From positions 1 through 58,748 of the forward strand of contig NZ_WUYX01000036.1 of assembly GCF_009834785.1 (NCBI RefSeq): 58,748 nt of DNA. The letters are read 5' to 3'. Each line of letters starts with the position of its first letter. Positions within the stretch are counted from its first letter, which is position 1. Below, piece by piece: positions 50,127 to 55,384 of the stretch. A program made the position numbers and the translations under genes. The notes beneath the pieces were generated by a model, which saw nothing but the letters and a program-made list of their open reading frames with translations, was not told the DNA's origin and ran no database searches. The DNA is from Natronorubrum halalkaliphilum. Lineage in GTDB: Archaea; Halobacteriota; Halobacteria; Halobacteriales; Natrialbaceae.

Positions 50127-50861
50127 ATGCGTGTCACCTTTCTTGGAAGCGGCAGTGCGATGCCGACCGGCGACCGGTTTCAAACGGGGATCCTCGTCCA
50201 GGAAGACGGGCGAACGCTGCTCGTGGACTGTGGATCCGGCGTCCTCCACCGGCTCCAGCAATCGGGCGTCGGCTACGAAACCATCTCGACGGTCCTGTTG
50301 ACCCATCACCACCTGGACCACGTCGCCGATCTGCTCCCGCTGATGAAAGCCCGCTGGCTCGCCGGCGAGGAACACCTCGAGATCGTCGGCCCGCAGGGGA
50401 CGAAAGCGCTGGTCGACGACCTGCTCGGCGTCCACGAGTACATGCAGGGCAAACTCGAGTTGCAGGTCCGCGAAGTCGTCCCCGGCGAGTTCTCCGTTGC
50501 CGGGTTCGACGTCTCGGCCTACGAGACTCGACACTCGCTGCCGTGTCTGGCCTACCGGTTCGGCGATCTGTTCACGTTCAGCGGCGACAGCGAAGCCTTC
50601 GCGGGATTAGCAAACTTCGCCGAAGGCTCCGCCATCCTGGCTCACGACTGTTCGTTCCCGGACGACGTCGACGTCTCGAACCATCCCACGCCGGAGACGC
50701 TGGGGAAGGAACTGGCCGGCCGCGAAATCGGCCGCGTCTACCTGACTCATCTCTATCCGCACACGGAGGGACGCCACGACGAGATGCTCGAGTCGATCGG
50801 CGCACACTACGATGGCGACGTTCGGTTTGCCGAGGACCTGAAGACGATATCGGTCGAATAA
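50127..50861 (+). CDS. Metallo-beta-lactamase fold hydrolase (RNase Z-like)
   Basis: This 244-residue MBL-fold protein has MRVTFLGSGSAMPTGDRFQT at the N terminus and the dinuclear zinc motif THHHLDH (His60, His62, Asp64, His65). Later ligands lie in the His-bearing segments YETRHSLPCLAYR, ILAHDCSF and VYLTHLYPH. The N terminus resembles the RNase Z/ribonuclease BN branch, but the RNase Z exosite arm is missing. It is more likely a small-molecule hydrolase (arylsulfatase-like or cyclic-phosphate type). The ATG at 50127 is clear. Confidence 0.88.
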   Translation: MRVTFLGSGSAMPTGDRFQTGILVQEDGRTLLVDCGSGVLHRLQQSGVGYETISTVLLTHHHLDHVADLLPLMKARWLAGEEHLEIVGPQGTKALVDDLLGVHEYMQGKLELQVREVVPGEFSVAGFDVSAYETRHSLPCLAYRFGDLFTFSGDSEAFAGLANFAEGSAILAHDCSFPDDVDVSNHPTPETLGKELAGREIGRVYLTHLYPHTEGRHDEMLESIGAHYDGDVRFAEDLKTISVE

Positions 50862-51053
50862 CCGTCCGAATCGGTTGTTTACCGCACTGAAGGGCTGAAT
50901 TGCTCCCGATTGAGCGTCGCGTCTCTTGATAGTTATTTGTGATTTGTTCCCCTAGGTATCGCGTATCCGAACAGGTATATATCCAGAGTTTGTAGGATCA
51001 TAACAACAGATGACCCTCCCTGGCCAATCGCCGCAGTTCGACGGGGTGAGCTG

Positions 51054-54000
51054 ATGAGTCTGCCAAATCGCATTGCTGACCTCGTCACCGGACGATCCCG
51101 TAGCGTTATCGTCGTCCTCCTCCTGGCGACAGCGTTGGTCGGTGCAGGAATGCCGATGGTCGACGACGACTCGTCGCTCGATCAGTTCGAGACCGATTCC
51201 GACGAAGCCGTAGCGCTCGAGGATATCGACGATCGGTTCGGTGCCGACGACGACGACAATACGACGTCAGTACAGTTGATCGCCAGAGGCGATAACGTCA
51301 TCACACAGGAGTCGTTGATCGGATCGCTCGAGTTCCAGCAGGAAATTCGTGCAAACGAGTCCATCAACGCGACGCTCGTCGAAGACGATCCGATAACGGG
51401 CGTCGAGAACATCGTCGCGATCACCGCCATAAGCGAGGACCGTATCGACGACCTCGAGGAACGCGGCGAGGAACTCGAGGAACGCGAAGAGGAGCTCCAG
51501 GCGTGGGCCGACGACCTCGAGGAACGCGGCGATCTTCTCGAGCGACGGGGCGATCGTCTCGAGGAGCGAGGCTCGGATCTTAGCGATCGGGGCGATGCAC
51601 TCGAGGAGGATCAAGCGGAACTCGAGGCCCGTACCGGAACGCTCCAGACAGCGCTGAACGAAACGATGGCGCTGCAGGGCCAGTACCTCGAAGCCGAAGC
51701 GGAGGGCGACGAGGAAGAGCAGGAAGCGATCGAACAGGAGATCGAAGAGACGAGAGCGGCCGCGATCGAGAACGCTGACCTCGACGATGAGCAGGCGGCG
51801 ACGTTCACCGTCGCGGCGGAAGACCTCCGGACTCTCGTCGGATTGGAAGCCGCCTACGAACGAGTTCCCGAGATTACTGACGATCCGGAAGCACAGGGAA
51901 TTCTCGTCGAGACGCTAACGGAAACCCGACAGCTCGAGGAGACCGGGGAACCTGACGAAGCCTTCGAAACGCTGTGGGAGGAACGCGGTGCGGAAGCCGG
52001 TCTGACCGAACAACAGCAGGCCGAGTTCGAAGCCATCGCCGAAGACGTCCGCGACGGTCAGTCCGAACTCCAGCAAGTCGAGTCGATGGAACTCGAGGCG
52101 GCCTTCGAGGAGGCTTTCGAACTCGGTACGATGGGCGTCTTCGCCGAGGAATTCGCCGAACTGGAGGAACGCGGTGAGCAACTCGAGAGCGACGGCGAGA
52201 CGCTCGAAGAGACGGGCGACAGACTCGAGGAAGACGCCGACGAACTCGAGCAAGAGCAGGAGGAACTCGAGGACGCGTTCGATCAACTCGAAGCGGACGC
52301 CGAAGCGCTCGAGGAAGACCAGGAAGACCTCGAGGACGGCGTCGATCCGTCGCTCGAGGAACAGATCGAGAAACTCGAGGAGCTCGACGACGAAGCGTTC
52401 GAAGACGTCCTGACGGAGACGCTGTCGGAAGATGAGGGCGAAGATGCGCCCGCGCTCGGCTTCATGCCGACGGGTTACGATCCCGGATCGACCGAAGCCG
52501 ACGCCCGGATGACCATGATCAATCAGCATTCGGATGCGGGCGACATGGAGATGGGCGGTGAGAGCGATCCGGCCCTGGACAGTCAGCTCGATCTCCGCGA
52601 ACTTGCCGATCAAAACGATCAGGAGTACCTGGTCTTCGGTGCCGGTATCATCACCGATGAAATCGATCGATCGATGGGCGACAGCTTCGCGATCGTCGGA
52701 CCGCTGGCCCTGCTGTTCGTCGTCGTTGCGCTGACGATCGCTTACCGCGATCCGCTCGATATCATCCTGGGCGTCGGCGGGATCCTCGCCGTTCTGGTCT
52801 GGACGTTCGGCTTCATGGGCTGGGCGGGAATCGCGTTCAACCAGATGATGATCGCGGTTCCGGTCCTCCTGATCGGGCTCTCTATCGACTACGCGATACA
52901 CGTCTTCATGCGCCACCGCGAGCAACGCGAAGCGGACGGTGTGTCGAGCACTGTCCGCGGTTCGATGACGATCGCACTGGCGGGTGTCGGCGTCGCCCTC
53001 ATCTGGGTGACGGCGACGACGGCTATCGGCTTCCTCGCGAACCTTGTGAGTCCGATCCCTCCAATTCAGGAGTTCGGTATCGCCAGCTCCGTCGGCATCA
53101 TCTCGACGCTGATCATCTTCGGCGGACTGATTCCTGCCCTCAAGGTCGAGATTGACACGTTCCTCGAGTCCCGCGGGTGGGACCGACGCAAGCGCGCGTT
53201 CGGCACCGGAGGCGGGCGATTCAGCAGCGTGCTTACTGCCGGATCGACCGCGGCCCGGCGGATTCCGCTCGTGATCATCGTCGCAACGGTGCTGCTGACC
53301 GCCGGTGGCCTTTACGGCGCGAGTCAAGTCGACACCAGTTTCGAGGAGGAAGATTTCCTCGCCGACAGCCCGCCAGAATGGACGCAAAACCTCCCCGGCG
53401 GGATGGCTCCTGGCGAGTACCGCGCCGCTGACGATCTGGAGTTCGTCAACGAGAACTTCCAGCGCGAGGACTCGCAAGCCCAGATCCTCATAGAGGGTGA
53501 TATCACCCACGACGACACCTTACACCGATTCTCGGACGCGCAGGACGAGGCCGCCGAGGCCGACGTCGTCTACACCCTCCCGAACGGCGATGCCGACGTC
53601 GAAGGACCGCTTACGGTCATGGAGGAGACGGCAGCCGAGAACGAATCGTTCAACGAGTCGTTCACCGCTGCCGATACGACCGGCGACGATATCCCCGATC
53701 AGGACATCGAGGCGCTCTACGACGAACTGTTCGAAGTCGACGAAGACAGAGCGAGCACAGTCGTACACCGCACCGAGGACGGCGACTACGAGTCGGCCCG
53801 GCTGATCATCGGCATTCAGGGCGACGCAGGGTTCGACGCAACGACCGACGAAATACGCGAAATTGCCGGGACGATCGACGTTAGCGGTACGGGCGATCAG
53901 CGCAACCTCGACGCCGGAGCGGGCGAACTGAACGCGATCGCAACCGGAGATCCGATCGTCAACTACATCGTCGAACAGGACCTGCTCGATACGGTCCTCC

Positions 54001-54608
54001 AGAGCCTCATGATCACGCTCGTCGCCGTCTTTGCCTTCCTGACGGTGGCCTACTGGCTCACCGGTAACGGCGCGGCGCTCGGCACGGTGACCCTGCTGCC
54101 GGTTGCGTTCGCCGTCAGCTGGATTCTCGGGACGATGTACCTGCTCGGCATCCCGTTCAACGTGATGACCGGAATGATCACCAGTCTCACGATCGGACTC
54201 GGAATCGCCTACAGTATCCACATCAGCGCCCGCTACACGCTCGAACTCGAGCGCCAGGGTAATGCCTGGTCGGCGATGCAGACGACCGTCACCGGTACCG
54301 GGGGCGCGTTGCTGGGCAGTGCCGCCACGACCGTCGGCGGATTCGGAACGCTGGTCTTCGCGATTCTGCCGGCGCTCCAGCAGTTCGGCTTCATCACCGG
54401 GCTGACGATCATCTACTCGTTCCTCGCGAGTGTCATCGTCCTTCCGTCGCTGCTGATCCTCTGGACGCGGTACTTCGGCCCGGACGTCTCCTTCGACACG
54501 TCGGGGACGACTAGCCCGGCCGCGACGGCGAGCGACGGCGGCCGGACGACCGAAACAGGGATGGGCGCGGACGACACTACCGACGAGTCACGAGGGAACG
54601 ACGAGTGA
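51054..54608 (+). CDS. RND superfamily (MMPL-type) exporter with coiled-coil insertion
   Basis: This 1184-residue membrane protein consists of two RND halves. TM1 is at about 16-35. The first outer loop is very long (about 36-540) and contains two Glu-rich heptad regions (128-195, with repeated LEERG units, and 368-448). TM2-TM6 begin near 545 (PLALLFVVVALTIA, then GLSIDYAIHVFMRHREQREA). The second half starts at about 740 (RIPLVIIVATVLLTAGGLYG) and ends with TMs after 980, including GLGIAYSIHISARYTLELER. Such proteins export lipids or hydrophobic compounds using the ion gradient. The 3' end overlaps the TrmB regulator gene (GTGA), so the two are co-expressed. Confidence 0.9.
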   Translation: MSLPNRIADLVTGRSRSVIVVLLLATALVGAGMPMVDDDSSLDQFETDSDEAVALEDIDDRFGADDDDNTTSVQLIARGDNVITQESLIGSLEFQQEIRANESINATLVEDDPITGVENIVAITAISEDRIDDLEERGEELEEREEELQAWADDLEERGDLLERRGDRLEERGSDLSDRGDALEEDQAELEARTGTLQTALNETMALQGQYLEAEAEGDEEEQEAIEQEIEETRAAAIENADLDDEQAATFTVAAEDLRTLVGLEAAYERVPEITDDPEAQGILVETLTETRQLEETGEPDEAFETLWEERGAEAGLTEQQQAEFEAIAEDVRDGQSELQQVESMELEAAFEEAFELGTMGVFAEEFAELEERGEQLESDGETLEETGDRLEEDADELEQEQEELEDAFDQLEADAEALEEDQEDLEDGVDPSLEEQIEKLEELDDEAFEDVLTETLSEDEGEDAPALGFMPTGYDPGSTEADARMTMINQHSDAGDMEMGGESDPALDSQLDLRELADQNDQEYLVFGAGIITDEIDRSMGDSFAIVGPLALLFVVVALTIAYRDPLDIILGVGGILAVLVWTFGFMGWAGIAFNQMMIAVPVLLIGLSIDYAIHVFMRHREQREADGVSSTVRGSMTIALAGVGVALIWVTATTAIGFLANLVSPIPPIQEFGIASSVGIISTLIIFGGLIPALKVEIDTFLESRGWDRRKRAFGTGGGRFSSVLTAGSTAARRIPLVIIVATVLLTAGGLYGASQVDTSFEEEDFLADSPPEWTQNLPGGMAPGEYRAADDLEFVNENFQREDSQAQILIEGDITHDDTLHRFSDAQDEAAEADVVYTLPNGDADVEGPLTVMEETAAENESFNESFTAADTTGDDIPDQDIEALYDELFEVDEDRASTVVHRTEDGDYESARLIIGIQGDAGFDATTDEIREIAGTIDVSGTGDQRNLDAGAGELNAIATGDPIVNYIVEQDLLDTVLQSLMITLVAVFAFLTVAYWLTGNGAALGTVTLLPVAFAVSWILGTMYLLGIPFNVMTGMITSLTIGLGIAYSIHISARYTLELERQGNAWSAMQTTVTGTGGALLGSAATTVGGFGTLVFAILPALQQFGFITGLTIIYSFLASVIVLPSLLILWTRYFGPDVSFDTSGTTSPAATASDGGRTTETGMGADDTTDESRGNDE

Positions 54609-55384
54609 CAAACGACGAAAGCGAAGCCGTCGACGCGTTCGAGCGACTCGGCCTCACCAGCTACGAGGCGAAGGTGTTCATCGCACTCCACCGACTCGGC
54701 TCCGGGACCGCACGCGACGTCGCCAGCGTGACCGACGTGCCTCGCTCGCAGGTGTACAGCGTCGCCGAGAGCCTCGAGGATCGCGGGTTGGTCGAAGTCC
54801 AGCAGTCGAGTCCGATTCGCTACCGACCGGTGAGCATCGAGGAAGCACAGCAGACGCTCGAACAGCGCTTCCAGCACGAGCGGGAACGGGCGTTCGATTA
54901 CGTCGAAACCGTCAGACGAGACTCGGAAACCGAAGAGACACAAGAAGACATCTGGACGATCCGGGGTAGCGACCGTGTCGACGACCGCGTCGTCGAACTG
55001 CTCTCGCAAGCCGACGAACGGTTCATCTTCGGAACGCGACTCCCGGAACTCGTCACGGAATCGATCGAACGGACGATCAAGGAACGAGCGGAAGCCGGCG
55101 TCTCGGCCCTCGTTATCAGCCGTAGCGACGACATTCGGGCAAAATTCAGCGACGTCGACGGCGTCAGAACGGAGTCACCGCCGCGCTTTCGCCAGGACGA
55201 CCAGCGGTCGGGTCGGATCGTCACCGCCGACGACGACAGCATCCTGTTGAGCGTTATCGACGACGGCGGCTGCGAGACCGCGATCTGGAGTTCGGACTCG
55301 CTGTTCGCGAACGTGTTGATCCAGTTGCTCGAGGCGAACGACGAGTTACAACCCAGCCCTGAACCGGAACCCGAACCCGAGTAA
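54605..55384 (+). CDS. TrmB family transcriptional regulator
   Basis: This 259-residue protein has a TrmB-type N-terminal winged helix (residues about 10-80: FERLGLTSYEAKVFIALHRL, then SGTARDVASVTDVPRSQVYS and LEDRGLVEVQ) and a C-terminal PLD-like/sugar-sensor-type domain. It starts with GTG inside the stop of the RND gene (GTGA), so it is translationally coupled and most likely regulates that exporter. The last residues are Pro-Glu repeats. Confidence 0.9.
   Translation: MTNDESEAVDAFERLGLTSYEAKVFIALHRLGSGTARDVASVTDVPRSQVYSVAESLEDRGLVEVQQSSPIRYRPVSIEEAQQTLEQRFQHERERAFDYVETVRRDSETEETQEDIWTIRGSDRVDDRVVELLSQADERFIFGTRLPELVTESIERTIKERAEAGVSALVISRSDDIRAKFSDVDGVRTESPPRFRQDDQRSGRIVTADDDSILLSVIDDGGCETAIWSSDSLFANVLIQLLEANDELQPSPEPEPEPE

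Follow-up and report, generated by a model that had tools for sequence, protein, structure and literature searches.

The 58,748-nucleotide stretch of Natronorubrum halalkaliphilum DNA analyzed here (contig NZ_WUYX01000036.1, positions 1 to 58,748; hereafter the window) contains an RND exporter gene whose product is predicted to raise a long coiled-coil hairpin from its first outer loop, and which overlaps a downstream gene for a TrmB-family regulator. The joint reading, to which we give a probability of roughly 0.6, is of an exporter with an adjustable coiled-coil stalk, encoded by an operon that is switched by its own TrmB and in which a mini-open reading frame (mini-ORF) in the leader is translationally coupled to the pump. 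The RND fold, the hairpin, the matching of its two arms, an inverted repeat in the leader, the conserved frame of the mini-ORF, and the gene overlaps are well supported by sequence or by structure prediction, and we infer the proton drive, the substrate class, contact with the surface layer (S-layer), the binding of TrmB to the repeat, repression, the ligand, the transcript start, and the coupling.

The exporter and its predicted hairpin

51054 to 54608, + strand: RND exporter gene, an open reading frame of 1184 amino acids with 12 predicted transmembrane (TM) helices
51402 to 51701, + strand: predicted ascending helix of the hairpin, residues 117 to 216 (AlphaFold2), containing the heptad run 134 to 197
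51711 to 52067, + strand: predicted helical tip, residues 220 to 338 (AlphaFold2)
52134 to 52334, + strand: predicted descending helix of the hairpin, residues 361 to 427 (AlphaFold2), containing the heptad run 363 to 426
52887 to 52889, + strand: codon of D612, the TM4 aspartate in a GLSIDY motif, Asp in 116/116 frames compared
54207 to 54209, + strand: codon of A1052 in TM10, Ala in 108/116 and Asp in 8/116 frames compared

The protein is a 12-helix RND (MMPL/HAE3-like) exporter by sequence and by its modeled fold, the export function being predicted, in agreement with an earlier, sequence-only reading of the locus. It matches Pfam MMPL in two stretches (112.8 bits, cut-off 20.5) and Pfam Patched SSD (43.6 bits, cut-off 23), and its best NCBIfam match is HAE3 (TIGR00921), a family of hydrophobe/amphiphile exporters, at 232.1 bits over two stretches, which is below the curated cut-off of 351.9; the HAE3 profile has 733 positions, compared with 1184 residues in the window protein. 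The MmpL family TIGR00833 scores 130.9 bits and does not reach its curated cut-off of 874.7. An AlphaFold2 model built with 66 aligned sequences has a mean predicted local distance difference test (pLDDT) score of 87.2 and a predicted template modeling (pTM) score of 0.69, and contains 12 TM helices with large outer loops after TM1 (∼504 residues) and TM7 (∼218). Its neighbors in Foldseek and VIA-align comparisons are MmpL5, MmpL4, NPC1L1/NPC1-type, Patched, and AcrB-type proteins, with the RND structures aligning over residues 1 to 1145.

Comparisons with relatives draw on 120 RND frames gathered from 80 plus 33 loci of halophilic archaea (L numbers), the window's own locus included; the relatives taken are the best 80 of 176, and the frame set is not exhaustive. 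Four fragments shorter than 700 amino acids (L004, L027, one from L009, and one from L014) were left out, and the 116 frames used, the window protein and 115 others, comprise 102 that are coil-bearing and 14 that are coil-less. Three pairs of loci encode identical proteins (L006/L037, L016/L046, and L018/L096), hence the non-redundant counts given below; one alignment covers 66 of the frames and another 21 of the TrmB proteins.

Loop 1 of the window protein spans residues ∼37 to 540 and is ∼504 residues long (∼502 by hydropathy), compared with 187 to 249 residues in the 14 coil-less frames, 186 to 198 in ten further coil-less RNDs (L126 to L135), and ∼143 to 174 by hydropathy in five short-loop RNDs from the same phylum (L154 to L158). 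The sequence-only reading had described this loop as more than twice the usual size and as holding two heptad-repeat regions, and both regions are present in a loop of at least twice the usual size, which is nonetheless unexceptional within its own kind (19th of the 120 frames by length, the longest having 989 residues). The two heptad runs, at residues 134 to 197 and 363 to 426, have 10 Leu-type positions each, and none of 10,000 shuffles of the same composition gave a strict run as long as the observed 10 (mean of the longest run 3.3, maximum 8), which rules out chance heptads. Loop 1 is predicted to form an antiparallel helical hairpin, with residues 117 to 216 leading up to a small helical tip and residues 361 to 427 leading down; the tip has five modeled helices (220 to 240, 245 to 269, 278 to 297, 301 to 314, and 319 to 338), and 10-residue mean pLDDT values are 77 to 94 within the two long helices. 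An outward-facing coiled coil, as had been proposed, is supported by this hairpin, by the acidity of the loop (173 acidic and 25 basic residues, with Asp plus Glu making up 37% of the coil segment), and by the matches to RND structures. A cytoplasmic coil is rejected on topology, and the monomer prediction neither places the repeats in the cytoplasm nor lacks a coiled coil.

At the TM10 position of A1052, all 102 coil-bearing frames have Ala, as do 6 of the 14 coil-less frames, the other 8 having Asp. MmpL3 has charged proton-relay residues in both TM4 and TM10, and the coil-bearing clade may instead run on one acidic site. The uniform alanine would suit a protein acting mainly as a Patched- or Dispatched-like surface sensor or adhesin, with a tip that binds another cell or the S-layer, as would the Patched/NPC1-type similarity and the repeated tip modules of Natronococcus relatives described below. 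This role is improbable, however: the TM4 aspartate is present in every frame, AcrB also has its acidic pair within one helix, and efflux pumps commonly have a local regulator linked to them.

Coil length and arm matching among relatives

Looked for in other RND proteins of halophilic archaea, the loop 1 insertion recurs widely, with a coil in 102 of the 116 frames; loop 1 spans 187 to 989 residues, and the coil ranges from none up to ∼29 heptads per arm. Arm heptads were counted inward from each insert end in proteins of <97% core identity whose two runs lie 40 or more apart. The counts are without L085, L101, and L098, in which the two runs merge, and without L081 and L005, which fall to this gap filter. 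The arms are equal within one heptad in 78/86 proteins (r=0.97) and, under 75% core identity, in 28/33 (r=0.968), whereas the share within one heptad averages ∼0.3 and never exceeds 0.61 when the pairing is permuted. Because matched lengths over such a range are hard to explain otherwise, the arms likely pair with each other.

The DNA of both arms has a tandem periodicity of 21 bp and 63 bp, which raises the alternative that the coil is a nearly neutral slippage by-product of 21-bp acidic repeats, functioning only in solubility in salt, and the great variability of coil length, including occasional loss, is in keeping with this. Slippage in one arm would unmatch the pair, however, and the arms are matched from 2 to ∼29 heptads; the heptads also persist among coil-bearing frames in which the acidic share of the loop runs from ∼0.12 to 0.38, and we regard neutral slippage as a very unlikely account of the coil.

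The longest coils, of 386 to 407 residues, are those of L085 (Halocatena marina), L101, L098 (Actinarchaeum halophilum), and L081 (a Haladaptatus halobius plasmid). Pro-Pro lies 3 to 4 residues off the coil midpoint in L085 and L101, and inspection by eye places Gly-Asn or Asn-Gly at the midpoint in L098 and L081. An AlphaFold2 model of the L085 loop has helices at residues 80 to 294 and 299 to 500, with 10-residue mean pLDDT values of 68 to 94 for residues 91 to 500; the model overall has a mean of 69.5 and a pTM of 0.33 from four aligned sequences, and its ends fold poorly. With a helix rise of 0.15 nm per residue, the modeled helices would give the L085 hairpin a length of roughly 30 nm. 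On a FastTree phylogeny of the core, in which 28 of 102 inner branches are weakly supported, the minimum number of arm-class changes is 27.

Two relatives from the same genus with 95.5% core identity illustrate the variation: the arms of L005 (6+6 heptads) flank a tip of only 13, and those of L007 (4+4 heptads) a tip of 103. Tip-like sequence recurs among the relatives and is repeated in four Natronococcus relatives (L045:5001-9995, L044, L047, and L048), in which coil-plus-tip modules are repeated in loop 1, with up to 795 residues between anchors and outer arms still of 5 and 4 heptads. An iterated tip profile also picked up heptads, and the copy numbers it yields are therefore not taken as module counts.

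The TrmB gene, its probable operator, and the leader

50976 to 50982, + strand: TATA-like element TATATAT, read directly, probable operon promoter
50988 to 51007, + strand: imperfect 20-bp inverted repeat GTTTGTAGGATCATAACAAC, probable TrmB operator by sequence comparison
51010 to 51054, + strand: mini-ORF of 14 codons (MTLPGQSPQFDGVS), its TGA sharing the last base with the RND start ATG (TGATG)
54605 to 55384, + strand: trmB-family regulator gene, 259 amino acids, overlapping the RND stop by 4 nt

The regulator is a TrmB-family member by its sequence, with 76.7 bits against Pfam TrmB (PF01978; cut-off 25.6), and is distinct from the named TrmB, TrmBL1, and TrmBL2 regulators, whose NCBIfam equivalog cut-offs of 500 to 650 are not reached (best 66.5 bits). 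Solved structures of TrmB and TrmBL2 match its winged-helix domain and the adjoining part (profile positions 14 to 183 of 254), but a 342-residue TrmB chain is matched over its residues 9 to 161 only, the window regulator having 259 residues. Its GTG start overlaps the TGA stop of the pump by 4 nt (GTGA), and 55/85 TrmB-linked frames have a 4-nt stop/start overlap. Scored for RNDs with at least 700 nt downstream, a TrmB gene is directly downstream of 80/97 coil-bearing but only 2/14 coil-less RNDs, and of 52/65 and 1/12, respectively, with near relatives removed (<85% core identity). The suggestion from the sequence-only reading that the exporter is coupled to an overlapping TrmB gene gains from this linkage, from the overlap, and from the probable operator upstream. 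At five loci (L042, L057, L069, L072, and L091) the order is RND-RND-TrmB, with a second coil-bearing RND shortly upstream; at these upstream copies the repeat is matched only poorly (4 to 5 mismatches).

The inverted repeat at 50988 to 51007 is probably the operator of the overlapping TrmB gene, judging from its distribution. GTTTGTAGGATCATAACAAC is the sole such site in the window at ≤3 mismatches, with 0.01 expected. The first form of the repeat, GTTNGTAN6TAACAAC, is present at ≤2 mismatches before 70/81 TrmB-linked but 2/31 unlinked genes. A degenerate form derived from those sites is located before 76/82 TrmB-linked and 4/31 unlinked genes, and without near relatives the association is 49 with and 5 without a site compared with 4 and 22 (p=3e-11). 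Across 31 genomes, this one included, the exact form is present once each in 18 and absent from 13, with a single match to the backward-read repeat, the control in genome motif searches, in all 31. All 18 exact matches are directly upstream of a pump relative, and the repeat therefore names no other target gene; with the exact form, no other targets that might serve as substrate clues were found among the 31 genomes. Of the 76 TrmB-linked leaders with a site, 51 have a TATA, TATT, or TTTA tetramer in the 30 nt that precede the proximal repeat, mostly at a distance of 10 to 14 nt. More than one repeat site is present in 18/82 TrmB-linked leaders, and by eye L039, L095, L063, and L068 have a second copy upstream of the TATA-like element.

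Immediately past the repeat is the mini-ORF, and 65 of the 76 leaders with a site have an ATG ≤16 nt past the proximal repeat. The distance from this ATG to the pump ATG has 11 different values between 26 and 167 nt, with 44 nt in 40/65, and equals 2 modulo 3 in 64/65 (the exception being L079); the mini-ORF stop overlaps the RND start in 63/65, 60 as ATGA and 3 as TGATG. Under 85% identity the frame is kept in 40/40 (39/39 in a second count), and the other ATGs in these leaders are distributed over the three frames as 36/35/13. Beyond the first residues the peptides have little resemblance, and therefore the frame rather than the product seems to matter. The TATA-like element is ∼30 nt upstream, and the transcript therefore probably starts near the mini-ORF ATG. 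Among ATGA and TGATG gene pairs tested in Haloferax volcanii and Escherichia coli, strict coupling is reported for 13/14 in excerpts of PMC6728339.

Proposed mechanism, alternatives, and known systems

In the mechanism we favor, the RND pump, probably proton-driven, would export a hydrophobic or amphiphilic compound, and a single antiparallel coiled-coil hairpin would rise from the first outer domain and stand off the membrane as a stalk. The stalk would act as an adjustable spacer or guide from the pump head to an outer structure, most plausibly the S-layer, its length evolving as both arms gain or lose heptads. TrmB, encoded by the last gene of the operon, would bind one inverted repeat between the TATA box and the transcript start and would repress until a ligand, perhaps the exported compound, frees the repeat. 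Translation would begin at the nearly leaderless mini-ORF, and the stop/start overlaps would hand it on to the pump and then to TrmB by termination-reinitiation. The tight S-layer of H. volcanii, with pores of ∼13 Å (excerpts of PMC8640222), may provide a reason for a stalk.

Several observations count against this mechanism. Eight frames with clear tips have arms 2 or 3 heptads apart, and among 45 matched pairs, insert length changes in steps of 14 residues in only 4 of the 24 that differ, no more often than by chance (p=0.09), with the tips changing too. The coil-less L064, L084, and L087 are nested in coil-bearing groups, having lost the coil with the gene intact, and the stalk is therefore not needed everywhere. 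At ≤3 mismatches the genome has one repeat site and the backward control also has one, and the degenerate form of the repeat was derived from the very sites that it is used to count. Six TrmB-linked genes have no site (L008, L024, and L105, with starts doubtful or cut; L018 and L096, which share one protein; and the coil-less L033), and four unlinked genes (L099, L092, L021, and L106) carry the repeat; a TrmB profile search at these four gave no match, with L021 and L106 ending at or next to the end of their stretch. Eleven of the 76 leaders lack a mini-ORF ATG, including those of the longest-coil L085, L101, L098, and L081, and because so many mini-ORF leaders share the 44-nt length, common descent accounts for part of the frame conservation.

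The closest known kind of protein is represented by the mycobacterial MmpL4, MmpL5, and MmpL10, in which an outer domain of the RND fold is likewise extended by a long antiparallel coiled coil. The MmpL5 coil, of 196 residues in periplasmic domain 2, is predicted to form a tube of ∼13 nm, and its removal abolishes pump function (excerpts of PMC12501195), as is likewise reported for MmpL10 and MmpL4 (excerpts of PMC12183618). By analogy with the proposals for MmpL5 and MmpL10, the hairpins of three subunits could come together as a closed tube of helices through which the substrate is carried, and the presence of MmpL5 and MmpL4 among the nearest structural relatives, together with the antiparallel nature of the MmpL5 insertion, lends this some weight. 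The tube is nonetheless unlikely. Across 40 non-redundant proteins with 6 or more heptads, Leu occupies one heptad position in 83 to 89%, and Gly, Ala, or a polar residue mostly occupies the +4 position, although Phe or Tyr is there in 18% of C-arm heptads. The arms thus have roughly one hydrophobic residue per heptad, which would suit a hairpin of two closely packed helices better than a barrel of six. The coil losses noted above also speak against an obligatory conduit, and the insertion is in loop 1, not in loop 2, which is ∼218 residues long in the window protein. The haloarchaeal coil sits in loop 1 of a different RND subfamily and varies widely in length (absent to ∼29 heptads per arm), and it therefore looks parallel to and independent of the MmpL coil; the neighboring gene also differs, being that of TrmB.

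More tentatively, and on balance doubtfully, the stalked pumps might constitute a class of exporters with a built-in ruler, in which a hairpin of ∼2 to 29 heptads per arm (∼2 to 30 nm) is tuned by lineage to the envelope so that the compound leaves the pump at the S-layer or outside it; this would be a single-protein archaeal counterpart of tripartite efflux, independent of the MmpL coil and under a self-targeting TrmB via a coupled mini-ORF. The question bears on how archaea pass exported molecules through a nearly closed S-layer, and the more than tenfold spread of stalk length with matched arms offers a natural experiment, open to comparison with S-layer height and to stalk swaps. The single-target repeat and the frame-kept mini-ORF similarly offer a small system in which TrmB repression and archaeal termination-reinitiation could be studied.

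H. volcanii HVO_A0467 (with HVO_A0466) is likewise a haloarchaeal RND/MMPL exporter in an operon, but its partner is an upstream secreted glycoprotein with predicted Ig folds (excerpts of PMC11349517), whereas that of the window RND is the overlapping TrmB gene; the word TrmB is absent from the main text of that paper. Its excerpts name extensive coiled-coil regions in haloarchaeal RND permeases only as a source of BLASTp matches, which were ignored. Among the open-licence papers listed in searches for this family, it is the only one that deals with haloarchaeal RND permeases and mentions coiled coils.

The flanking genes, counted by presence at the 80 loci and not by adjacency, give no hint of the substrate. 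Directly upstream of the pump operon is an RNase Z-like gene of the metallo-beta-lactamase fold (50127 to 50861), with a homologue in 36/80 loci, and a pelota gene is downstream in the window, with a homologue in 32/80 loci. Among the relatives, L021 contains an open frame of ∼1600 amino acids, perhaps an RND fusion or an RND with a long C-terminal extension, that reaches the end of its stretch.

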